Positions 9,208 through 21,227 of a DNA stretch of 43,001 nt are shown in pieces. The stretch spans positions 1 to 43,001 of the forward strand of contig CAMFCQ010000016.1 in NCBI GenBank assembly GCA_945948915.1, given 5' to 3'. The notes under the pieces are model-generated. The model was not told where the DNA came from, ran no database searches, and was given only the letters and a program-made list of their open reading frames with translations. This DNA comes from an uncultured Clostridia bacterium (GTDB taxonomy: Bacteria; Bacillota; Clostridia; Christensenellales; Aristaeellaceae). The position numbers were made by a program, and so were the translations under genes. Every line of letters starts with the position of its first letter. The first letter of the stretch is position 1.

Positions 9208-9366
9208 ATGGATGAATGTCTTGATGCTGCATTTAGGCAGGCGTGGCTGAATTATGCCAATAAAACTCTGCTTGACATGGGGCTGATCACAGAGCAGGAA
9301 TACCAGAAAATGGCGGTAAAACTTGCCAATTCGCTCGCAAGTTTGCGGAATCCTTCGCAAGCATGA
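9208..9366 (+). CDS. Small protein preceding serine recombinase
   Basis: A 52-residue protein, start ATG at 9208 chosen because GGAGGTGA lies directly upstream. The sequence is helical and charged (AFRQAWLNYANKTLLDMGLI, then EQEYQKMAVKLANSL), with no membrane segment. It ends 34 bases before the recombinase start and is surely co-transcribed. Small ORFs in this place are usual in serine-recombinase modules; a directionality factor or regulator is possible, but nothing in the sequence proves this. Confidence 0.65.
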   Translation: MDECLDAAFRQAWLNYANKTLLDMGLITEQEYQKMAVKLANSLASLRNPSQA

Positions 9367-9400
9367 TAGAATTGCGGTATCAAGCCAGGAGGGTATAGCT

Positions 9401-11029
9401 ATGAACGTGTATGAAGTCCGCAAAATGCTCCAGCATAAACCCATCACGGATATTCCGCTTCGTGTGGTATCCTATTGCAGGGTATCGACAAAGTCGGCGG
9501 AGCAGGCGACATCCATCGAGAATCAGGTTGAGCACTATCGAAAAAAGATCCAGAGCATTCCGGCGTGGACATTTGTCGGCGAATATGTCGATAACGGCAT
9601 TTCAGGCACTTCCGTAAAGGCCAGAGTGCAATTCAACAGAATGGTGGAGGATGCGCAGACCGGCAAGTTCGATCTCATCGTGACAAAAGCTGTTTCGCGC
9701 TTTGCCAGGAATACGCTGGACAGTCTGATGTTTTCGAGGAAGCTACTTGAAGTGGGTGTGGGCATCTGGTTTGATACGGACGGTATTCTGAATCTTGACA
9801 AGGACGGAGAACTCCGGCTTTCGATTTTCTCCGCCTTGGCTCAGGACGAGTCTGCAAAAAAGTCGGAGTCTGTGAAATTCGGCCTTCATGAGGCAATCAA
9901 GAAGGGAACCGTCTTTGGATTTGACAATATGTTCGGATATCGCAAAAAAGACGGGAAGCTGATGATTGATGAAAAAGAAGCCCCTGCAATCAGAAAGCTC
10001 TTTGAACTGTATGCGACAGACCAATACAGCATGAAGCAGATTGAGCAAATCCTGTATAGCGATGGATTCCGCAACCACAACGGCAACAAGCTTTCTCATG
10101 CAACGATGGCGCATATCATCAGGAATCCGAAGTATAAGGGATACTTCTGCGGGAACAAGGTGACGGTTGAAGACATGTTCTCCAAGAAAATGGTGTTTAA
10201 GCCGGAAAAGGAATGGGTAATGTTCAAGGATGAGAGTATCGTGCCGGCGATTGTCAGCGAGGAACTCTGGGAGAAAGCCAACGCTGTGCTGGCTGTGCGG
10301 AGTCTGGACGTCAAGCAAAGGCAGAACAAGTGCAACCGGCCGAATCTGATGACAGGTAAGCTGTACTGTGAACATTGCGGCAGGCTGTATCATCGTAAGA
10401 TGTCCAGAACGAACAAGGGAATAGCGAACAGCTCATGGGTGTGCGCCGGAAAGATCGAACACGGTGCGTCTTCGTGTCCGTCACGGTATATCTATGAGAG
10501 CGAACTGAAGACGGTACTCTACGAGACATTCAGAGGGGACAAGTTTAACGTCGAGGAATGTGTGGATTTGTATGTAGAAGCGTTTCAAACGCTGATCAGC
10601 AACAATGAGACGGGCAGACAAATCGAGGCAGCCAAAAAAGATATGGAGGCGCTGGAGAAGAAGAGAAGCAAGCTGCTTGAGTACAATGTGTTGGGCTCCA
10701 TTACGGATCAGGACTTTCTGGCAATGAACGAGTCGATTTCGTCAGAGCTTGAGGAAAAGAAAATCCGGATTGCCAGTTTGGAAAGTGAACTGGAGAGAGA
10801 AAACAACATTGCAGGCAAGGTGGAGGAAATCCGTGAGTCGCTGATGAAGCTGTCCGGAATTGACAGCCCGGAGATGATTACGGAGGAGTTCATCAAATAC
10901 TGCATCGACAGGATTGACGTGAAGGTGGAAGGCGATGTCCTCAGGCTGACGATCAGCCTTGTTACGGGGAAATCGGCGATCAAGCAGCTCGCAGCTCTTC
11001 GTCCGGGTCAAAGAAGCTTGGTCATGTAG
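9401..11029 (+). CDS. Large serine recombinase at right end of an integrated element
   Basis: A 542-residue protein; the ATG at 9401 follows AGGAGGG. The N-terminal resolvase domain begins VVSYCRVSTKSAEQ, giving catalytic Ser29, with the arginine-rich active-site block AVSRFARNTLDS. A recombinase domain, a zinc-ribbon (KLYCEHCGRLYHRKM ... CAGK ... SSCPSRY) and a long coiled-coil segment (~400-475) follow, the standard large serine integrase plan. Its stop codon TAG and last codons overlap, on the opposite strand, the broken 3' end of a SASP gene. This places the recombinase at the very end of an element integrated in that gene. Confidence 0.95.
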   Translation: MNVYEVRKMLQHKPITDIPLRVVSYCRVSTKSAEQATSIENQVEHYRKKIQSIPAWTFVGEYVDNGISGTSVKARVQFNRMVEDAQTGKFDLIVTKAVSRFARNTLDSLMFSRKLLEVGVGIWFDTDGILNLDKDGELRLSIFSALAQDESAKKSESVKFGLHEAIKKGTVFGFDNMFGYRKKDGKLMIDEKEAPAIRKLFELYATDQYSMKQIEQILYSDGFRNHNGNKLSHATMAHIIRNPKYKGYFCGNKVTVEDMFSKKMVFKPEKEWVMFKDESIVPAIVSEELWEKANAVLAVRSLDVKQRQNKCNRPNLMTGKLYCEHCGRLYHRKMSRTNKGIANSSWVCAGKIEHGASSCPSRYIYESELKTVLYETFRGDKFNVEECVDLYVEAFQTLISNNETGRQIEAAKKDMEALEKKRSKLLEYNVLGSITDQDFLAMNESISSELEEKKIRIASLESELERENNIAGKVEEIRESLMKLSGIDSPEMITEEFIKYCIDRIDVKVEGDVLRLTISLVTGKSAIKQLAALRPGQRSLVM

Positions 11030-11280
11030 CCGCCGATGTAGCCGGCCTGACGGGACGGCAGGTCGCCGTTGTAGCCCTGCTTGAGGTTGATGCCCAGCTC
11101 GGAAGCGATCTCATACTTCATCTGGTTGAGCGCACCCTTGGCCTGCGGCACGACGGTGCGGTTGCTGCGGCTGGAACCGGAAGCGTTCTGCGCGTTCTGC
11201 TGGCCGCCCATGTTCTGCTGCTGCTGCGCGCCCATGTTCTGATTCTGAGCGTTCATGTTCTGATTCTGGTTCTGATACAT
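11008..11280 (-). pseudogene. Alpha/beta-type SASP, C-terminus cut by integration
   Basis: Small acid-soluble spore proteins coat DNA in the forespore. This 90-residue frame has an unusual N-terminal Gln/Asn-rich extension (QNQNQNMNAQNQNMG), then the SASP signature VPQAKGALNQMKYEIASELG and GYIGGYMTK. It then ends LL-stop. The paralogue 48 bases upstream continues KRLVEQAEQQMAGQGF, so helix 2, which contacts DNA, is lost here. The break lies exactly at the end of the serine recombinase gene. It is either a broken gene or one restored by excision of the element. Start ATG with AAGGGG about 13 bases upstream. Confidence 0.8.
11014..11029. other. Element-SASP junction (candidate attachment site)
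   Basis: Reading the SASP gene on the minus strand, codons match the family up to GGYMTK and then run into LL-stop, where the intact paralogue continues KRLVEQAEQQ. The switch falls at CTTGGTCAT (11017-11025), so the crossover core should be within or beside it. The matching left end is not in the window. Confidence 0.6.
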
Positions 11281-12763: not shown

Positions 12764-13312
12764 AGACCGTCGAGAAAGCGTTGCCAACGGTCTGTCGCTG
12801 CAAGTCTGCTATCGCATCCTTGCAGCGGATAAAGCATCTTTTCTTGCGCGCCGCGCGCACGGCCAGAAAATGATCAAGGAAGCGGCTTGCAGCCTTCCGG
12901 GAAACTCACATAGCCGCACTTTCAGTGGGCCTTGCGATTTCCGGCGATCCGCCTGCCTGTTTTCGCCACTGGCGGCGACAGGCTTCGGCCCCTTCGCAAG
13001 CAGTTTTGTCAAGGGGTATTCTTTTAAGAATCCATCAATAGCAAACAGCAATGCCTGTCAACGGACCCGAAACAAGGTTGGGTTACTGCGTTTGGCAGGC
13101 GTTGTTATTTTTGGCTCAGAGTGCACCCAAATTGCTCGTCAAGCACAGGTCAAGACATCGCTATACACAGAACGGCTCCCAGAATACATTGGAAGAGAGC
13201 TGCAATGCAACGCAAGGGAGGACGTTATCCCGTGTTCAGCTTTCGTTGACGAGTGCACTGGAAGAATCTCTGTTTGTTTTTGCACCGGCATAGACTTGTC
13301 GGGGTGATATTG
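12764..13312. other. No supported gene between recR and sigK
   Basis: Short open frames are present, but none has both a ribosome site and recognisable protein content. The stretch must contain the sigK promoter; I do not see a convincing sigma-E-type box pair. CATAGACTT at 13289-13297 is a weak -10 candidate. Confidence 0.5.
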
Positions 13313-13963
13313 ATGATCGAGCAGATGGTTTTGTTTTTCCTTCGGGATGCGCTGTTCTTATTGGGTGTACTCTCGCGGGGCAATGCTTTTCCAAACCCGC
13401 TTTCCCGTGAGGAGGAAACTCGGATGATTGAGCGGATGACGCAGGGGGACCACGAAGCGAGAGAGACACTCATTGCACACAATTTGCGGCTTTGCGCACA
13501 TATCGCGCGCAAGTACACCGTGCCGGGCTGCGATCGGGATGACCTGATCTCCATTGGGACAGTCGGCTTGATTAAAGGAGTTAATACGTTCAAGCCTGGA
13601 AGCGGTACGCAGCTGAGCACGTACTGCGCACGATGCATCGAAAATGAGATCCTCATGTGCCTTCGAGCAAGCCAGAAACGCAAGGGGGAAATGTCTCTGC
13701 AGGACCCAATCGGCATGGACAGCGAGGGAAACGAGATCACGCTGATTGACGTGCTGGGAACGGATGAAAACGAGGTGCATGGACAGGTGGAGCGGCAGGT
13801 CAGCCTGCAGACAGTGCGCCGCCTGGTTGGCACCTGCCTGCGCGGCCGGGAACGCACAGTGATTGAGATGCGCTACGGCCTGCTTGACGGCAGAGCGTAT
13901 GCGCAGCAGGAGGTAGCTGCGCGTCTGGGCATTTCCCGGTCGTATGTATCGCGCCGCCGCTAA
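13313..13963 (+). CDS. sigK: Pro-sigma-K, 5' part interrupted by skin-like element
   Basis: Sigma-K directs late mother-cell transcription in sporulation. The ATG at 13313 follows GGGGTGAT. Residues 1-23 form a hydrophobic pro-sequence (VLFFLRDALFLLGVLSRG) before NAFPNPLS, as in pro-sigma-K processed by SpoIVFB. Region 2 (HNLRLCAHIARKY, DDLISIGTVGLIKG, TYCARCIENEILM), the linker (DPIGMDSEGNEITLIDVL) and region 4 (LGISRSYVSR, ending Arg214) are all good matches. After Arg214 the frame reads RR-stop, where the family continues IEK. The missing 18 codons are at 21170-21227, next to a serine recombinase, and share a 10-bp core with this end. Without rejoining, the recognition helix end is lost and the protein should be inactive. 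Confidence 0.95.
   Translation: MIEQMVLFFLRDALFLLGVLSRGNAFPNPLSREEETRMIERMTQGDHEARETLIAHNLRLCAHIARKYTVPGCDRDDLISIGTVGLIKGVNTFKPGSGTQLSTYCARCIENEILMCLRASQKRKGEMSLQDPIGMDSEGNEITLIDVLGTDENEVHGQVERQVSLQTVRRLVGTCLRGRERTVIEMRYGLLDGRAYAQQEVAARLGISRSYVSRRR
13944..13953 (+). repeat. Left recombination core (attL) of the sigK element
   Basis: ATGTATCGCG, within codons Tyr211-Arg214 of sigK, identical to 21160-21169. Confidence 0.88.
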
Positions 13964-14032
13964 TGTAAACGATATGGTCTTTGGGCGGCCGTGCATCGAG
14001 CCATTTCACCGCATGCTCTTCATGTTGATTTG

Positions 14033-14229
14033 ATACTACTCTCAAATAAAATCGGCCATGCAATAACCGGCCGTCAGGTAACGCTTCGCTCCCTGACTGC
14101 TTTTCTTTGATCGCTTCGCGATATGGAGACGTTGGGGGATTTCATCCCCCAAACCCCTAGCCTGGGGACCAGTCCCCAGACCCCTTCTTCGCTTCGCGCT
14201 TATAGCTCGTTTCTATTTGAGAATAGTAT
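14033..14229 (-). repeat. MITE-like repeat, copy 1
   Basis: A 197-bp unit with terminal inverted repeats ATACTACTCTCAAATA and TATTTGAGAATAGTAT (15 of 16 pair). Its right 49 bases are the exact reverse complement of the copy at 42953-43001. Inner hairpins include TGGGGAC/GTCCCCA and GGGGGAT/ATCCCCC, plus a GTCAGG...CCTGAC arm shared with copy 2. No coding capacity. It lies just inside the left end of the sigK element. Confidence 0.85.
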
Positions 14230-14269
14230 GAAGCAGGATCGATATGGCCGGCGCTTGATGAACCGGGAT

Positions 14270-14307
14270 AAAAACCGCGCACCGCTTCGGATGTGAAGCG
14301 GTGCGCG
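14270..14307 (-). terminator. Terminator of the beta-mannosidase gene
   Basis: Perfect 13-bp stem CGCGCACCGCTTC / GAAGCGGTGCGCG with a 6-base loop, followed on the minus strand by GTTTTTA. Confidence 0.88.
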
Positions 14308-14340
14308 TGCGTATTCAGCGTTCTATCTCATCTGAGCAGC

Positions 14341-16776
14341 TCAGCGGATATCATAGACGCTTCTGGCAGAGAACTTTGTGCCTTCGCCCCGGACAATGCG
14401 GATGATTCGTTCTCCGCCGTTCAGGTCAAAATAGTTGTCCTCAAACAGTACGTCCCCGTCTTCGCAGATCAGCTCAATCTGCCTCGCATAGGCGTCTGCG
14501 GAAACGATCAAGGCGCGATCCTCCATGCGAACCTTCACATGCGGATCGGCGAAATGGAAATGCTTTGGTGCGCAGAAGAGCGCCGTGCCTTCGGAAACCG
14601 TGCTGTCCCCGTCAAGCAGTTCATAGGAGACATAATGCTCATACAGATTCGCCTGGGGGAAGACCTGCTTTTCAAGCCAGCATGCGCTCAGGGCGGGCAC
14701 ATCCACCACCGCTTCGCCCTGCTCAAGGATCTCGGCCTGCGGATTCCGGAGCGCCCAGCGCACAAGCGCATGGACGGGCTGCATCGTCTCGTTCGAGACG
14801 TTCAGTCGAATGCTCTTTTCGACGTCCTCTTCGCGCAGCTCCGCGTTGATGTTCTGGCGCTGCGTGAGCGTGCCCTCTTCCTCACACGAGAGAAGAACCG
14901 GGGCGAAGAAGCGCTTTGACGCGTAATGCAGGGCCTTCCAGCGGCCGAAGTAATCGATGGAGGACCAGCTCGCGACGGGCCAGCAGTCGTTGAGCTGCCA
15001 GTAAACGGAACCCATGCACCGGCCGCGGTTGCGCCGCCAATGCTCCACGCCGTAGCGAATCGCTTCCGCCTGAAGAAGCTGCGAAGCGTAGAGCAGTGTG
15101 TCAAAGTCCGTGGGATACAGGAAGGTCTGGGAGAGGTAGTTCAGGATCTTGCCGTTAGCCGCGTTGTTGCGCTGATGCTTTTCCATGACATAGGAGAACA
15201 GATTGCGGTCCTGCGGCAGGGTAAAGCTCTCGACGGTCTTCAGGCAGGGAAGAGACTGGAATCCGAATTCAGAGACAAAACGGAAATGATACTTCCTATA
15301 ATCGGTAAAGGGAACGCCGCCATGCCAGACGGTCCAGTAGTGCACATCGCCGCGGTTTTCGTCATTGGGATTGTCAAAGCCGCCGCCGGAGGACGGGGAC
15401 GCGGGCCAGTAGAACGTATCCGGATCATGTGCCTTGAGCACCTGCGGCAGGATATATTCGTACATCTTCACGTAGTCCGACACCTGCGCCGGCGTTGGGT
15501 CATACCATCTTTCCACAACGCCGATTTCCATCTCATTGTTGCCGCACCACAGGCCCAGCGAGGCATGATGCCGCAGACGGCGGATGTTGTCGGCAAACTC
15601 GGCGCGGATGTTGTCCTCAAATGCAGGCGTCAGCTCGTACATCGCGCAGGCGAACATGAAATCCTGCCAGACCACCAGGCCCAGCTCGTCGCAGGCGTCA
15701 TAGAACCAGTCGTCCGGATAGTATCCGCCGCCCCAGACGCGGATGGCATTGTGGTGCGCATCGGCGGCATCCTGAAGGAGACGGCGCGTGCGCTCCGGCG
15801 TAATCCGCCTGAAGATGTTGTCCTCGGGTATGTAGTCCGCGCCCATCGCGAAGATGGATACGCCGTTGACGCAGGTCTCGAAGGACTCGCCCCATTCGTC
15901 CCTGTTTCGGTTGATGGTCAGCGTGCGCAGGCCGATCCGGCGTTCCCAGGTATCCACGACATGGCCGTCCTGGTCAACAAGCTCCGCGCACACGGTGTAG
16001 AGCGGCTGCGCGCCATAGCCGTTGGGCCACCAAAGCTGCGGCTGCGCGATTAAGACGCGTTCCCCCTGAACCGGGATCACGCGGTGATCGGGCGTCCTGA
16101 CGCTATAGCGCACGGACAGCGTGCCCGCTGCATACCGCTCGATTTCAGGAAAGAACGTGAGCGAAACGCCCTCGCGCCCGTGCTCCTGATGGATGCGGAC
16201 GCTGAGCAGCCGCCCTGTGTGGACGCTCACGAGCGACATGTCGCGCCAGATGCCCGCATCCGGCAGGCGGGGGCCCCAGTCCCAGCCGGACATGCAGTGC
16301 GCCTTGCGCAGAAACGGAAAGCCCTGCGTGCAGTCGGTGGAGCCGTCCACCCGGGAACGGGCATAGGCCTCCCGCTCAAAGCGGATGGGCGAGGAGAAGC
16401 ATACGGTGATGTCATTTTCTCCCGCATGGACGGCACCCAAAACGTCCTTCACCCAGGTGCGGTGCATGTTGTCGGCGTGCAGCACGTCCTGCCCGTTGAT
16501 CGTGACCGTGGCCAGGGTGTCCAGGCCTTCGCAGACCAGCAGCAGCGCATCGCAGGCCAGCGCGTCTTCGGTCAGTGTGAACGTGCGCCGGTACAGATAG
16601 TCCTTCTCCATGAGGCGCTCTGCATCCAGCTCATTGGCGCGCCAAAAGGGATCGTCCATCATTTTGTTGTCAAGCAGGTCGGCGTAGACGGACCCCGGAA
16701 CCTCGGCGCTGATCCACTGCGCATCCTGGACAGCCTTCATTTCCCATGGGCCGCACAAACTCATTCGTTGATTCAT
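14341..16776 (-). CDS. GH2 beta-mannosidase
   Basis: An 811-residue protein, normal family length, ATG behind AAAGGAGC. The N-terminal sugar-binding sandwich opens with the beta-mannosidase hallmark WISAEVPGSVYADLLDNKMM and then DPFWRANEL. The TIM barrel carries the acid/base in LGLWCGNNEMEIG (Glu415) and the nucleophile in RFVSEFGFQSLP (Glu503). A C-terminal beta domain follows. No signal peptide, so it acts in the cytoplasm and releases beta-linked mannose from imported oligosaccharides such as N-glycan cores or mannan pieces. It is cargo of the sigK element, divergent from the rhamnosidase, with its own promoter and terminator. Confidence 0.93.
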   Translation of the reverse strand: MNQRMSLCGPWEMKAVQDAQWISAEVPGSVYADLLDNKMMDDPFWRANELDAERLMEKDYLYRRTFTLTEDALACDALLLVCEGLDTLATVTINGQDVLHADNMHRTWVKDVLGAVHAGENDITVCFSSPIRFEREAYARSRVDGSTDCTQGFPFLRKAHCMSGWDWGPRLPDAGIWRDMSLVSVHTGRLLSVRIHQEHGREGVSLTFFPEIERYAAGTLSVRYSVRTPDHRVIPVQGERVLIAQPQLWWPNGYGAQPLYTVCAELVDQDGHVVDTWERRIGLRTLTINRNRDEWGESFETCVNGVSIFAMGADYIPEDNIFRRITPERTRRLLQDAADAHHNAIRVWGGGYYPDDWFYDACDELGLVVWQDFMFACAMYELTPAFEDNIRAEFADNIRRLRHHASLGLWCGNNEMEIGVVERWYDPTPAQVSDYVKMYEYILPQVLKAHDPDTFYWPASPSSGGGFDNPNDENRGDVHYWTVWHGGVPFTDYRKYHFRFVSEFGFQSLPCLKTVESFTLPQDRNLFSYVMEKHQRNNAANGKILNYLSQTFLYPTDFDTLLYASQLLQAEAIRYGVEHWRRNRGRCMGSVYWQLNDCWPVASWSSIDYFGRWKALHYASKRFFAPVLLSCEEEGTLTQRQNINAELREEDVEKSIRLNVSNETMQPVHALVRWALRNPQAEILEQGEAVVDVPALSACWLEKQVFPQANLYEHYVSYELLDGDSTVSEGTALFCAPKHFHFADPHVKVRMEDRALIVSADAYARQIELICEDGDVLFEDNYFDLNGGERIIRIVRGEGTKFSARSVYDIR

Positions 16777-16829
16777 CTTTTTGCTCCTTTTCTGATTGGC
16801 GGGGCAGACAGCGTGTGCCTTATAGGGAA

Positions 16830-16858
16830 ATTATAATCGACAAGCCGGAAGAAAGCAA
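16830..16858 (-). promoter_or_regulatory. Promoter of the beta-mannosidase gene
   Basis: Minus strand TTGCTT (16858-16853), 17-base spacer, TATAAT (16835-16830). Confidence 0.75.
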
Positions 16859-16976
16859 TCTTTTATAGTTGTTTTGCCGAAGAAGCTTGATTTTCCTATG
16901 GAGTATTTCACAAGAATGTGGTATGGTTATGCCAAGATCGTGCAGGATTGGCGTATTTAAGGGAAGGAGAGCGGTT

Positions 16977-19142
16977 ATGGTCGTTCAGGGACAATGGATT
17001 TCGGCGCCGCTGCAAAACACGGATGCGGTGCCGGTGTTTTTCAAAACATTCAGGGCAGAAAAGCGGATTCACCGGGCGACGCTCACGATCACGGCGCTGG
17101 GCGTGTACGAGGCATGGCTGAACGGGAGCCGCGTCGGGCAGTTTGTGCTCGCGCCCGGCTGGACATCCTACGCGCACCGCCTGCAGGTGCAGCGCTATGA
17201 CGTGACGGCGCAGCTTGAAAAAAGCAACGAGCTTTCTGTGCTGGTCGGGCGGGGATGGTTTTCCTCCCCGATCGGATTCAGTGATGAACTCCGCAGCACG
17301 GGGCTGAGTCGCCCGCGCGCACTGCTCGCGTGGCTGTGCGTGGAGTATGAGGACGGAGAAAAGGCGGTCATCGGCACGGACGAATCCTGGCTGTGCCGCG
17401 AGAGCGCCATCCGCAAGAGCGAGATCTACGACGGCGAAACGTTTGACGCGACGTTCGTCCCGCCTGCGCCCGTCCATGCGCAGGTGCTCGATTATCCGGT
17501 TGATCTGCTGATCGAGCAGGAGGGCGAGGAGGTTCGCGAGCAGGAGCGCGTGCAGGCGCAGCGCATCTTCACCACCCCGGAGGGGGACGTCGTGGTGGAT
17601 TTCGGCCAGGAGATCACCGGCTATGTGGCGTTTTCCGTTGCGGCAAAGCAGGGGGACGAGGTGCTCATCCAGCACGCCGAAGTGCTCGACAGGGATGGCA
17701 ACTTCTACAACGAGAACTACCGCTCGGCCAGGGCGGAAATCCGCTATACCTGTGAGGAAGGGATGAACGTCTATCATCCGCGCCTCACGTTCTACGGCTT
17801 TCGGATGATTCGCCTGGCGAAATGGCCGCAGAGGGTGGAGGACATTCGCCCGGAGCAGTTCACGGCGATTGCCGTGTATTCCGCCATCCGCCGGACGGGC
17901 CATGTATCCTGCTCGAATCCCAAGCTGAATCAGCTCTTCTCCAACGTATTCTGGGGACAGCGCGGCAACTTCCTTGACGTGCCAACGGATTGCCCGCAGC
18001 GGGATGAACGCCTGGGCTGGACGGGCGACGCGCAGGTCTTCTGCAAGGCGGCGTCCTATAACTACGATGTGTACCGGTTCATGCGCAAGTGGCTGCACGA
18101 CCTCGCCGCAGACCAGCTGGCGCAGGGCGGCAAGGTCGGCCATGTGATTCCCGATGTGCTTCACAGCGAGAAGGGCTCCGCCGCATGGGGCGACGCGGCG
18201 ACGATTATCCCCTGGCAGCTGTACATGAGCTACGGCAGGGAGGAAATCCTCACAGAGCAATTCGCGTCCATGCGCGCATGGGTGGACTATATCTCGAAGT
18301 CTACGACCACCCCCGATCTGTGGACGGGCGGCGAGCACTACGGCGACTGGCTGGCGCTGGATGCGCCGCAGGGCAGCTACAAGGGCTCTACGCGGGAGGA
18401 CTTCATCGCCTCCGCGTTCTATGCGCATTCTGCGGAGCTGGTCATCCGCGCCGGCCGCGTGCTGGGCGAGGATGTTCACGAGGTTGAGGCACTGCATGCG
18501 CGCATCGTCGCCGCCTTCCGAGAAGCGTTCCCGGTGTGTCTCACGCAGACGGAGTGCGTGTTGGCGCTGCACTTCGGGCTTGCGGAGGATGAAGAGGCCG
18601 TCGCACGGAAGCTCTGTGAGCTGATTGAGCAGGCGGGCCGCATGGAGACGGGTTTCGTCGGTACGCCGTATCTGCTGCATGTGCTCTCCCGGTACGGTCA
18701 TACCGATCTGGCGTACAGGCTCCTGCTGCGGGAGGCATATCCCTCGTGGCTCTACGCCGTGGATAAGGGCGCGACGACGGTCTGGGAGCACTGGGACGGC
18801 ATTCTTGAAAACGGCGACTTCTGGTCGAGCGACATGAACAGCTTCAACCACTATGCCTATGGCTCTGTGATCGACTGGGTGTATGAGCGGTCTGCGGGCA
18901 TACGGCCCGCCGCGCCCGGCTTTGCGCGCGTGATGGTCGCGCCGGAGCCGGCGGACGCGCTCGACTGGCTGGAGGCGTCCATCGACACGCCGCACGGACG
19001 CGTGTCGAGCCGGTGGACGCATGTGGACGGACGGATTCGCTATGACATCACGCTGCCGGTGCAGGGCGAGGTCGTCATCGACGGCGCGGCATGCACGCTG
19101 GCGCCGGGCAGCCATGTGCTGTGGGGAAAGGACAAAGGCTGA
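16977..19142 (+). CDS. GH78 alpha-L-rhamnosidase
   Basis: A 721-residue protein; ATG at 16977 behind AAGGAGA, because the upstream extension has neither ribosome site nor family similarity. N-terminal beta domains (ITALGVYEAWLNGSRVG, LAPGWTSYAHRLQVQRYDVT) precede the (alpha/alpha)6 barrel, with the GH78 motif DCPQRDERLGWTGDAQVF (Glu344 is the likely general acid) and TVWEHWDGIL (Glu604 the likely base). No signal peptide, so cytosolic. It removes terminal alpha-L-rhamnose from plant glycosides or pectin side chains. It is cargo of the sigK element together with the divergent beta-mannosidase. The exact substrate cannot be read. Confidence 0.93.
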   Translation: MVVQGQWISAPLQNTDAVPVFFKTFRAEKRIHRATLTITALGVYEAWLNGSRVGQFVLAPGWTSYAHRLQVQRYDVTAQLEKSNELSVLVGRGWFSSPIGFSDELRSTGLSRPRALLAWLCVEYEDGEKAVIGTDESWLCRESAIRKSEIYDGETFDATFVPPAPVHAQVLDYPVDLLIEQEGEEVREQERVQAQRIFTTPEGDVVVDFGQEITGYVAFSVAAKQGDEVLIQHAEVLDRDGNFYNENYRSARAEIRYTCEEGMNVYHPRLTFYGFRMIRLAKWPQRVEDIRPEQFTAIAVYSAIRRTGHVSCSNPKLNQLFSNVFWGQRGNFLDVPTDCPQRDERLGWTGDAQVFCKAASYNYDVYRFMRKWLHDLAADQLAQGGKVGHVIPDVLHSEKGSAAWGDAATIIPWQLYMSYGREEILTEQFASMRAWVDYISKSTTTPDLWTGGEHYGDWLALDAPQGSYKGSTREDFIASAFYAHSAELVIRAGRVLGEDVHEVEALHARIVAAFREAFPVCLTQTECVLALHFGLAEDEEAVARKLCELIEQAGRMETGFVGTPYLLHVLSRYGHTDLAYRLLLREAYPSWLYAVDKGATTVWEHWDGILENGDFWSSDMNSFNHYAYGSVIDWVYERSAGIRPAAPGFARVMVAPEPADALDWLEASIDTPHGRVSSRWTHVDGRIRYDITLPVQGEVVIDGAACTLAPGSHVLWGKDKG

Positions 19143-19377
19143 CGGCACCGTATTGCCCAAACCATAACGTCCAGCTGCGGAATGCAGCCGGGCTTGTACA
19201 TGACAGGAAATCTCCCGATTTGCGGGGCAAAGCGCTGTTAGCGGCGTCTTGCTCCGAAGCCGGGAGGTTTTCTTGTGAATTCTTTTCCGCCAGGGAACCA
19301 GGAGTGCTTTTCTGCTGCGCGGAGGACAAGCAAGAAAACCGCGTCCCGACATAGAATCCGCCAAGGAGGTGGGGTGT

Positions 19378-19524
19378 GTGAGGCGTAGTCAAGCCCTTGT
19401 GGTTCGCTGCGAATACCCGAGCACCGGGAAGAGTCTCGCCTGTCTGCTTGAGGAATCCTTCCGGCTTTATCTGGCCCGTATCCTTGCAAGCCCGGACGGT
19501 CATAAGGGATCCTGCGGGCGATGA
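19378..19524 (+). CDS. Small ORF leading the recombinase operon
   Basis: A 48-residue peptide starting at GTG with AAGGAGG eight bases upstream. The sequence includes ALVVRCEYPSTGKSLACLLE and then ESFRLYLARILAS. From memory, peptides with this RCEYP...LLEESFRLYLARIL pattern are often found just upstream of large serine recombinases in gut Firmicutes; I cannot check this here. It ends 27 bases before the recombinase start. A role in recombination direction or expression is inference. The 235 bases before it hold no gene that I can support. Confidence 0.65.
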   Translation: MRRSQALVVRCEYPSTGKSLACLLEESFRLYLARILASPDGHKGSCGR

Positions 19525-19551
19525 ATGGCCGCTTGTTTCAAGGAGGATGTG

Positions 19552-21129
19552 ATGACTCTGGAAATAAGCAACCCCGAGGATTATCATGTCGCCCTGTACA
19601 TCCGATTATCGAAGGAGGATGAGTGCGATGGCCCCTCGCAGAGCGTCACCAACCAAAAATCGTTGCTGAATGAATTCGTCAAACAGCACCGTCTCGTGGT
19701 CTGCGACACCTACATCGACGACGGCTGGAGCGGCACCAGCTTTGACAGGCCGGCCTTTCAGCGCATGATTGCCGACATCGAGGCCCGGAAGGTCAACATG
19801 GTCATCACCAAGGACCTGTCCCGCCTGGGCCGCGACTACATCATGACCGGGCACTACATGGAGCGGTACTTCCCCGAAAAGCGGGTCCGCTACATCTCCC
19901 TGCTGGACGGCATCGACACCGGCGTGGAATCCTCCGCCAACGACATCACCCCGTTCCGTGCCATCATGAACGACATGTACGCCAAGGACATCTCCAAGAA
20001 GATCAAGTCCGTCAAGCGCGACAAGCAGCACAAGGGGCAGTTCATCGGCGGAAAGCCCATGTACGGCTACAAGATGCACCCGACGGAGAAGAACAAAATC
20101 GTCATCGACGAGGAGGTCGCCCCCGTCGTGCGGCGGATCTTCGCCATGGCGCTGGAGGGCGTCAGCTGCCGGCAGATCGCCGTGCGGCTGAACGAGGAGC
20201 ATGTCCCTGCGCCGTCCGTGTACAGCGGTTTGAACGTCGGCAGAAAGGGTCCCTACACCGGGCAGTGGTCCAGCGAGCGCATTTCGGAAATGCTGCAAAA
20301 CGAGACCTACATCGGCCACATGGTGCAGGGGCGCACGGTCAAGATCAGCTACAAGTCGAAGAAATGCCTCAAGCAGGCGCGGGAAAACTGGGTCGTGGTG
20401 GAAAACACCCATGAGCCGCTGATCGATCCGGCCACCTTCCAGAAGGTGAGGCTGCTCATCAGCAGCCGGAAGCACACCCGCAGCCGGACGTATGACTTCC
20501 TGCTTAAGGGGCTGATTGTCTGTCACGAGTGCGGCTATCCCATGGCGGTCGTCAACCGGCCCACAGCAGACGGCTCCCAAAGGCTGTTCTTCGTCTGCCG
20601 GACGTACCAGCGGTTCACGAAGGCGGGCGTCTGCACCTGTCATTCCATTAAGGAAGAAACGGTTACACAGGCGGTGATCGGGAAGGTGCGCGAGGTCTGC
20701 CAGGCGTTCATGAATCCGATCAGCCTGCAGCCCATCGCCGCCGCTGCGGTGGAGCAGGCCCGCCGGGCGGAGAGCCACGAGGCCGAGCGTCAGGCGCTGC
20801 GCAGCAGGATGGACGGCATGACCGCCAATCTGGATCAGGTCTACATGGATCGGCTGAGCGGCCTGCTGGCGGAGGCGGACTTTGAGCGCATCTACAAGCG
20901 CATCCGCATGGAGCGCGAGGCGCTGGAGGAAAAGCTGCGCGCGCTGGAGGCGCAAAAGGAAAGCCCAATCAGCACACAGGAGCGGGCGCGGGAGCTGGTC
21001 GCGCACTTTCTTGCCTCCGTCTGTACCAGCCGGGAGCTGCTGGTCAGCCTCATCGAGCGCGTGGAGCTGACGGAGGACAAACAGATCATCATTCGATTCC
21101 GCTTCCGCGAGCTGGAAGCGATTTCTTAA
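19552..21129 (+). CDS. Large serine recombinase, SpoIVCA-like
   Basis: A 525-residue protein; ATG at 19552 behind AAGGAGGATGTG. The catalytic domain begins VALYIRLSKEDECDGPSQSV (Ser20), with KDLSRLGRDYIMTGHYMERY. A recombinase domain (GGKPMYGYKMHPTEKNKIVI), zinc ribbon (LIVCHECGYPMAVV ... FVCRTY ... VCTCHSI) and coiled coil (~400-475) follow. It differs clearly from the recombinase at 9401-11029. Its stop lies 30 bases from the right core of the sigK element, so it is the obvious candidate for excising the element in the mother cell, the role of SpoIVCA. No sigma-E-type promoter was recognised with confidence. Confidence 0.93.
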   Translation: MTLEISNPEDYHVALYIRLSKEDECDGPSQSVTNQKSLLNEFVKQHRLVVCDTYIDDGWSGTSFDRPAFQRMIADIEARKVNMVITKDLSRLGRDYIMTGHYMERYFPEKRVRYISLLDGIDTGVESSANDITPFRAIMNDMYAKDISKKIKSVKRDKQHKGQFIGGKPMYGYKMHPTEKNKIVIDEEVAPVVRRIFAMALEGVSCRQIAVRLNEEHVPAPSVYSGLNVGRKGPYTGQWSSERISEMLQNETYIGHMVQGRTVKISYKSKKCLKQARENWVVVENTHEPLIDPATFQKVRLLISSRKHTRSRTYDFLLKGLIVCHECGYPMAVVNRPTADGSQRLFFVCRTYQRFTKAGVCTCHSIKEETVTQAVIGKVREVCQAFMNPISLQPIAAAAVEQARRAESHEAERQALRSRMDGMTANLDQVYMDRLSGLLAEADFERIYKRIRMEREALEEKLRALEAQKESPISTQERARELVAHFLASVCTSRELLVSLIERVELTEDKQIIIRFRFRELEAIS

Positions 21130-21159
21130 GGGGCAATCGTTTGCAATAGGCGCGAAGCG

Positions 21160-21169
21160 ATGTATCGCG
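21160..21169 (+). repeat. Right recombination core (attR) of the sigK element
   Basis: ATGTATCGCG, identical to 13944-13953. The sigK 3' fragment continues directly from it. Confidence 0.88.
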
Positions 21170-21227
21170 GATTGAGAAAAAGGCGATGCTGCGGCTCAAG
21201 GAGGCGTTTGAGAAGGGCACGAGCTAA
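21170..21227 (+). CDS. sigK: sigK 3' fragment (last 18 codons and stop)
   Basis: In the frame fixed by joining the two cores, the DNA from 21168 reads Arg-IEKKAMLRLKEAFEKGTS-stop. IEKKA after SYVSR is the most conserved part of sigma-K region 4.2; B. subtilis sigma-K has SYVSRIEKRALMK at this place. The fragment has no start codon or ribosome site of its own, so it is only meaningful after excision (compare spoIIIC of B. subtilis). The joined protein would be 232 residues, close to the 241 of B. subtilis. Confidence 0.92.

Follow-up and report, generated by a model that had tools for sequence, protein, structure and literature searches.

A probable skin-type element in region 4.2 of sigK in an uncultured Clostridia bacterium, and its relatives in gut Clostridia

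Introduction

In Bacillus subtilis and Clostridioides difficile, a recombinase removes an intervening element, skin, from the sporulation gene sigK in the mother cell. Here we describe a sigK-intervening element, probably of this type, in a 43,001-nucleotide stretch (hereafter the window) of contig CAMFCQ010000016.1 (assembly GCA_945948915.1), from an uncultured Clostridia bacterium of the Aristaeellaceae, together with its relatives in other genomes.

The skin element of B. subtilis lies at an AATGA site (PMC10745906) and carries 48 kb of prophage-like cargo; its recombinase gene, encoding SpoIVCA, is under sigma-E/SpoIIID control, with SpoIIID activating spoIVCA (PMC517825). The window element resembles it as a large-serine-recombinase element in sigK, with the pro-sequence kept and sigma-E/SpoIIID control predicted, but it lies at codon 214, is 7.2 kb long and carries glycosidases. 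In skinCd of C. difficile, the gene of the recombinase CD1231 stands, as here, immediately upstream of the 3' sigK part, and a small directionality factor, CD1234 (72 amino acids), is under sigma-E and SpoIIID (PMC5025042); the window holds a candidate for such a factor only. Unlike in the window element, CD1231 is constitutively expressed from sigma-A and CD1234 is encoded apart, and C. difficile sigma-K lacks the pro-sequence found in the window. The codon split in C. difficile is not stated in the portions of the skinCd literature consulted, and may be codon 214 or another.

In the Bacillus cereus group, island IV of B. cereus biovar anthracis (Bcbva) likewise places non-phage cargo in sigK, insertions are described for strains AH820, J7 and J62, and excision has been shown for Bcbva and AH820 (PMC10745906). 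The insertions of this group lie at nt 195, in agreement with a codon ~66 site (see below), and at nt 423; these and the B. subtilis AATGA site are the published sigK splits in the accessible text of that paper, which describes no region 4.2 site or doubly split sigK for the group. The gin element of B. cereus gerE, with its recombinase GirC and the 42-aa partner protein GirX (PMC5595907), is also short and non-prophage, with a size like that of a 2.4-kb element (L050) described below; unlike the window element, it sits in another gene, and in Bacillus. Serine-recombinase integration in sigK is further known from Alicyclobacillus phage MMB025 and C. perfringens phage phiS63 (PMC13141910), which differ from the window element in being infectious phages; MMB025 has the core TCTC, and the codon is not stated in the accessible text.

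A search of open PubMed Central literature (subscription papers and preprints lay outside it), in the portions that were accessible, found no region 4.2 site, small partner gene, doubly split sigK or survey covering elements of this sort in Oscillospiraceae or Lachnospiraceae. Thus, while the skin kind is already known, the codon-214 site, the small gene and the three-piece sigK reported here did not turn up and are apparently new.

Results and discussion

A sigK gene split in region 4.2

The sigK frame begins with an ATG at 13313 and is open through SYVSRRR-stop at 13963, the interruption falling at codon 213-214, in region 4.2, with an insert of 7,216 bp. The 10-mer ATGTATCGCG has exactly two copies in the window, at 13944 and 21160, on the same strand and 7,216 bp apart, with none on the opposite strand of the window. 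Directly after the second copy follows IEKKAMLRLKEAFEKGTS-stop, ending at 21227, and joining the two copies gives an unbroken 232-residue pro-sigma-K frame. Two spore sigma-K models match the 5' part: TIGR02846 with 283.7 bits over profile positions 2-213 of 227, under its cut-off of 298.65 because the sigK end is missing, and PRK05803 with 279.8 bits, above cut-off. The Pfam Sigma70_r4 match stops at profile position 40 of 50, a point that we take to lie in the recognition helix. An initial annotation, made from the letters of this DNA alone, had read the frame to SYVSR followed by RR-stop, a second 10-bp core 7.2 kb on, a 232-residue pro-sigma-K upon joining and a split in region 4.2, and all of these readings held. 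The parts of the split gene are as follows.

13289..13296, plus strand: CATAGACT, sigma-E/K-type -10-like box upstream of sigK (by eye)
13313..13963, plus strand: 5' part of sigK, codons 1-213/214, then RRR-stop from the element end (open reading frame, ORF, and profile matches)
13944..13953, plus strand: left core ATGTATCGCG (attL), with the predicted crossover dinucleotide GT at 13946-13947
21160..21169, plus strand: right core ATGTATCGCG (attR), with the predicted crossover dinucleotide GT at 21162-21163
21160..21227, plus strand: 3' part of sigK, RIEKKAMLRLKEAFEKGTS-stop when joined at the core (sequence)

The elongation factor P gene comes next after sigK. The window's own genome, a draft of 158 contigs that is 88.7% complete, yielded no second sigma-K gene. 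Elsewhere in the genus (29 genomes), 14 members have a sigma-K match that continues without a break past the codon-214 point to the profile end; uninterrupted relatives with the joint SYVSRIEKKA, as the initial annotation had anticipated, do exist, the joint reading SYVSRIEKKAM in three and SYISRIEKKAM in one of the four genes written out. Split at codon 214 are the window genome (G000) and G015, while G002 has the recombinase with a sigK end behind it (contig L068) and no 5' part that could be found. Three further members (G004, with L173 and L174; G012, L176; G014, L175) have sigK pieces split near codon 112, and in G004 and G014 an unrelated recombinase, 23% identical to that of the window, lies beside the piece. 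Nine of the 29 lack a sigma-K-family match at 1e-30; spoIVA occurs in 16 of the 29, G000 included, and in none of those nine.

Over codons 1-213, the split sigK genes of G000 and G015 differ by 0.040 nonsynonymous (dN) and 0.699 synonymous (dS) changes per site, a ratio of 0.057 (13 other sigK pairs computed gave 0.047-0.146). By this measure the split sigK is under purifying selection, and the two codon-214-split copies give no sign of the decay that the initial annotation had named as grounds for doubt. Such a ratio at this dS, together with the sigK C-terminus that can still be read beyond the recombinase in 67 of the 80 relatives (see below), makes it highly improbable that sigK is dead and its frame-exact joint the relic of a recent insertion, even though the host is known only as a draft genome without a sigE match.

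Anatomy of the element

The element sits inside sigK, the flanking gene parts join in frame and its own recombinase lies beside an att site, as in skin-type elements. Within it we recognize the following features.

13960..13973, plus strand: right attP arm CTAATGTAAACGAT
14341..16776, minus strand: cargo, glycoside hydrolase family 2 (GH2) beta-mannosidase-like gene, 811 aa (ORF and domain match)
16869..19142, plus strand: cargo, family 78 (GH78) alpha-L-rhamnosidase-like gene, 757 aa (ORF and domain match)
19322..19331, plus strand: SpoIIID-like site GAGGACAAGC, one mismatch to WWRRACARNY
19350..19357, plus strand: CATAGAAT, sigma-E/K-type -10-like box of the small-gene/recombinase operon
19378..19524, plus strand: small conserved gene encoding 48 aa from a GTG at 19378, alternatively from 19372; candidate recombination directionality factor
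19525..21129, plus strand: large serine recombinase, ORF of 534 aa, likely start 19552
21136..21149, plus strand: left attP arm ATCGTTTGCAATAG

The recombinase has an N-terminal Resolvase domain, a Recombinase domain and a Zn-ribbon; judged by eye from its ribosome-binding site, the start at 19552 is likelier than 19525. Its ORF ends at 21129, 30 bases from the right core, as first annotated, and the GH2, GH78 and ~48-codon genes are additions to that annotation. The GH2, GH78 and recombinase genes are the large ORFs of the element, and phage-derived content of the B. subtilis skin kind was not found among them.

In the circle arrangement, ATCGTTTGCAATAG and CTAATGTAAACGAT form an inverted repeat (12/14 positions, by eye) centred on the core GT, and this repeat arises only in the circle-joined form. 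The part common to attL and attR was GT, with both sides variable, in all 14 elements compared by eye; GT, common to the two sites and central to the repeat, is therefore predicted as the crossover dinucleotide. A palindromic core, considered as the cause of the inverted insertions described below, was rejected because the common part is GT. An exact attP pattern had no match in the viral_contigs set.

Distribution and orientation of the recombinase family

When 84,980 species genomes were scanned with six short peptide patterns, an approach that gives a lower bound, at least 492 relatives of the recombinase were found. Locus counts in what follows cover the best 80 of these 492 (69-96% identity), or 81 loci with the window, the sequence behind each recombinase being assigned by a score-based pass. 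Of the 80, 76 are located at the codon-214 sigK site, mostly in gut Clostridia; within the class, 5 of 393 genomes, the window's own included, have a recombinase match at 1e-150 or better. The independent invasion of sigK proposed in the initial annotation is borne out in that neither the site nor the recombinase is that of the codon-112 splits of the genus; with 76 of 80 relatives at codon 214, it was not a one-off. Junctions of this type recur in numerous independent records, named strains among them, which leaves hardly any room for an assembly artefact or contaminated bin, for which the fragmented and incomplete draft might otherwise speak.

The window orientation, with the sigK C-terminus readable behind the recombinase, is found in 67 of the 80 (68 of 81 with the window). 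Nine of the 80 show the inverted orientation, the 5' sigK part lying beside the recombinase (L064, L072, L073, L074, L077, L086, L090, L091 and L103); their attP lies the other way round with respect to the recombinase gene, and the starred branches of a quick tree force at least three changes of orientation. The remaining four are unassigned to the sigK site: L096, with its recombinase at a contig edge, L048, with a sigK attL ~7 kb away, L088 (see below) and L060. The last is a codon-214-type recombinase with non-sigK sequence beyond the core in a Spirochaetales-titled record, and may be a chimeric contig or mis-binned.

Genera named in the records include Blautia, Butyricicoccus, Pseudoflavonifractor, Flavonifractor, Oscillibacter, Faecalibacterium, Flintibacter and others, and carriers among named strains are Blautia wexlerae MSK.20.46, Pseudoflavonifractor capillosus An827 and Flavonifractor sp. 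An82. In the quick tree the B. wexlerae recombinase clusters with records from Oscillospiraceae and other Lachnospiraceae, which suggests that the codon-214 recombinase has been transferred between hosts. Among 50,697 phage records there were 117 matches to the recombinase, all below 60% identity, and viral_contigs held nine relatives, six of them at 60% identity or more.

A small partner gene and promoter-like signals

Directly upstream of the recombinase there is a small gene, located in 71 cases, which has 37-59 codons and in most of them a good ribosome-binding site. An iterated profile search detects it in 73 of the 81 loci; in seven of the eight misses the contig begins at most 80 bases from the recombinase match, and L094 is the one real miss. 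The protein has one nearly invariant cysteine (alignment of 56) and is modelled as a single helix (mean predicted local distance difference test score, pLDDT, 79; predicted template modelling score, pTM, 0.47). No convincing Pfam family was found among five proteins scanned, no PHROG match among four, and no match of the profile to solved chains. Its size and position make it a candidate directionality factor, the role played in known elements by CD1234 of skinCd (72 aa, PMC5025042) and by GirX, the partner of the gin recombinase (42 aa, PMC5595907).

Promoter-like signals were counted against 200 shuffles in 68 loci, those among the 71 with a located small gene whose upstream sequence reaches 110 bases. 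The box CATAnnnT precedes the small gene in 62 of these 68 (mean in shuffles 5.0, maximum 11), being absent from L078, L070, L114, L109, L113 and L118, and CATA stands 24-46 bases before the start codon in the 56 loci, out of a set of 57, that were aligned. The SpoIIID consensus is WWRRACARNY, although this literal string was found in no paper of the open PubMed Central literature. A SpoIIID-like site is perfect in 20 of 65 loci and deviates at one position at most in 36 of 65 (shuffles: means 0.3 and 5.0, maxima 3 and 11). In the subset of 57 small genes the corresponding counts are 54/57 for CATAnnnT, 16/56 for perfect and 30/56 for near-perfect sites (one mismatch at most), while a stretch farther upstream has 0/56 and 6/56; the bases between the promoter blocks are little conserved across loci. 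Recombinases at other sites, the window's second recombinase (see below) included, have CATAnnnT in 1 of 11, their start codons being less certain. Ordinary sigma-A control was rejected, TATAAT-like boxes (21/57) being no more frequent than by chance (shuffled mean 22.0). From these motifs we predict sigma-E/SpoIIID-type mother-cell control of the small-gene/recombinase operon, with GGACAAGC as its putative SpoIIID binding sequence.

Size and cargo turnover

Measured elements of the family span 2.4 to 103 kb. The 16 with both ends available, the window included, measure ~2.4-9.8 kb, a range that leans small since the flanks analysed extended over 10 kb; the element of G015 is larger, at ~38.1 kb, and so is that of Flavonifractor sp. 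An82, at 103.4 kb. The smallest, L050 (2.4 kb), holds the small gene, the recombinase, one ORF of ~110 codons and little else. Although G015 belongs to the same genus, it has in common with the window element the recombinase end only (1.8 kb, 94%), and the glycosidases are not shared. Ten cargo proteins scanned from other elements comprise a shikimate dehydrogenase, a 3-dehydroquinase, three AAA ATPases, a tyrosine integrase, a Fic protein, a ParA-type ATPase, an ORC-CDC6-like protein and one without a match.

The recombinases of G000 and G015 (dN 0.021, dS 0.251) are less diverged at synonymous sites than the hosts' sigK genes, suggesting later exchange. This difference, the variable cargo and the sufficiency of a recombinase with att sites for integration would all suit an ordinary integrative element attached at sigK, free of developmental control and seldom leaving, whose hosts would sporulate poorly or without sigma-K. 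We nevertheless consider this unlikely, given the contrast between the mother-cell-type box in 62 of 68 loci and in 1 of 11 recombinases elsewhere, and given purifying selection on the split sigK.

Other splits in sigK and a possible one in a spore-protein gene

Some of the 5' sigK parts begin no earlier than codon ~63 or ~109. Among 18 genomes searched, six of them picked for this feature, nine have sigK in three pieces, split at codons ~66 and 214 (G694, G695, G696, G705) or ~112 and 214 (G691, G692, G693, G703, G704), and each of the nine has a recombinase of a different lineage directly beside the following sigK piece. A single contig carries the three pieces in G705 (Flavonifractor sp. 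An82), G692 (UBA1701) and G696; in the other six the piece order is inferred, since pieces are on separate contigs or one is missing. The joined sigK of An82, its pieces spread over ~121 kb, would have 231 residues, 193 of them identical to an intact relative of 230. A complete in-frame three-piece joint is claimed, as a prediction, for An82 only; that of UBA1701 is in frame from ~codon 24 onward. The codon-66 junctions of G696 and G694 share only 2-3 bases, and a KK-YY joint is possible (by eye).

In viral contigs, sigK is carried at 34 loci, with prophage-like splits near codon 114-121 or 141-144 and no codon-214 split among the 18 ends inspected. The IMG/VR prophage contigs L268-L270, L273-L276, L278, L282, L294 and L295 end in sigK near codon 141-144 (GTDKEGNE), which is a fourth sigK insertion site.

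The window also holds a second large serine recombinase (9323-11029, plus strand), whose 3' end overlaps that of a small acid-soluble spore protein gene (11008-11280, minus strand). The latter ends in GYMTKLL; a neighbour from 11328 continues MVKRLVEQAEQQ. A second element may truncate the spore-protein gene, its other end lying beyond the contig start.

How the element may work

Taken together, the frame-exact joint, the paired att arms, purifying selection on sigK, the conserved promoter box with SpoIIID-like sites, and spoIVA lead us to favour, with a probability of roughly 0.75, a sigK-intervening element of the skin type that is excised in the mother cell, rebuilding sigK. In the proposed scheme, sigma-E with SpoIIID would transcribe the two-gene operon for the ~48-residue protein and the recombinase in the mother cell; the recombinase would recombine attL with attR at the GT dinucleotide, with the small protein as the directionality factor required for excision; and the element would leave as a circle, with sigK rebuilt. 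The forespore chromosome would retain the element, which would therefore be inherited. The initial annotation had called the element functional and developmentally excised; skin-like excision is what the sequence evidence favours, and 'functional' remains an inference.

Several points weigh against developmental excision. No excised joint or circle was seen for the codon-214 elements, and sigE was not found in the window's draft genome. A GCAA block is conserved as -35, 17 bases before CATA, and fits poorly to both the ATA of sigma-E and the AC of sigma-K, whose promoters have similar -10 boxes and differ at -35 (PMC3789822). The shuffled controls overstate independence, because the loci are related by descent. 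One metagenome-assembled genome (MAG), G024 (L171, L172), counted above as intact, also has a codon-214-split sigK of different sequence, and may be a mixed bin or have two sigK copies; the second intact sigK named in the initial annotation as a counter-indication is thus missing from the window's genome but present beside a split copy in this MAG. Finally, at L088 both attP arms are joined behind the recombinase, forming an intact attP outside sigK, and the MAG concerned has an uninterrupted sigK.

The L088 contig (L249; G709 C40) was also considered as an excised circle, a claim that was dropped because the contig has large chromosomal ORFs (by eye, UvrB and PyrE) and lacks overlapping ends. 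The combination at L088 would fit a reversible switch, in which excision and re-integration vary among growing cells and only part of the population completes sporulation, a behaviour reported of yin, the yabG element, which is present in both states within a culture (PMC10747680, in its accessible part); with the L088 contig not circular and no mixed assembly found for the window's genome, we regard such a switch as very improbable.

Extending the skin-type reading to the family, we lean, with less assurance, towards sigK of gut Clostridia as a multi-site dock, in which at least three codons are used by different serine-recombinase lineages, sometimes two at once (An82 would need two excisions), and in which sigma-E/SpoIIID-type control of the codon-214 operon has made the site a selected cargo platform. 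Already in the skin-type scheme, the codon-214 site would be a dock for exchangeable cargo, here the GH2 and GH78 glycosidases.

Significance

Skin-type control of sigma-K has so far been studied in few Bacillus and clostridial species. With a region 4.2 lineage, a small gene and a promoter box present in cultured strains, programmed excision would become testable across gut spore formers, and codon-214 recombinases with readable att sites are candidate DNA-integration tools. A three-piece sigK would require two excisions before sigma-K could be made, a natural experiment on whether these elements serve to regulate sporulation or merely hide in it.

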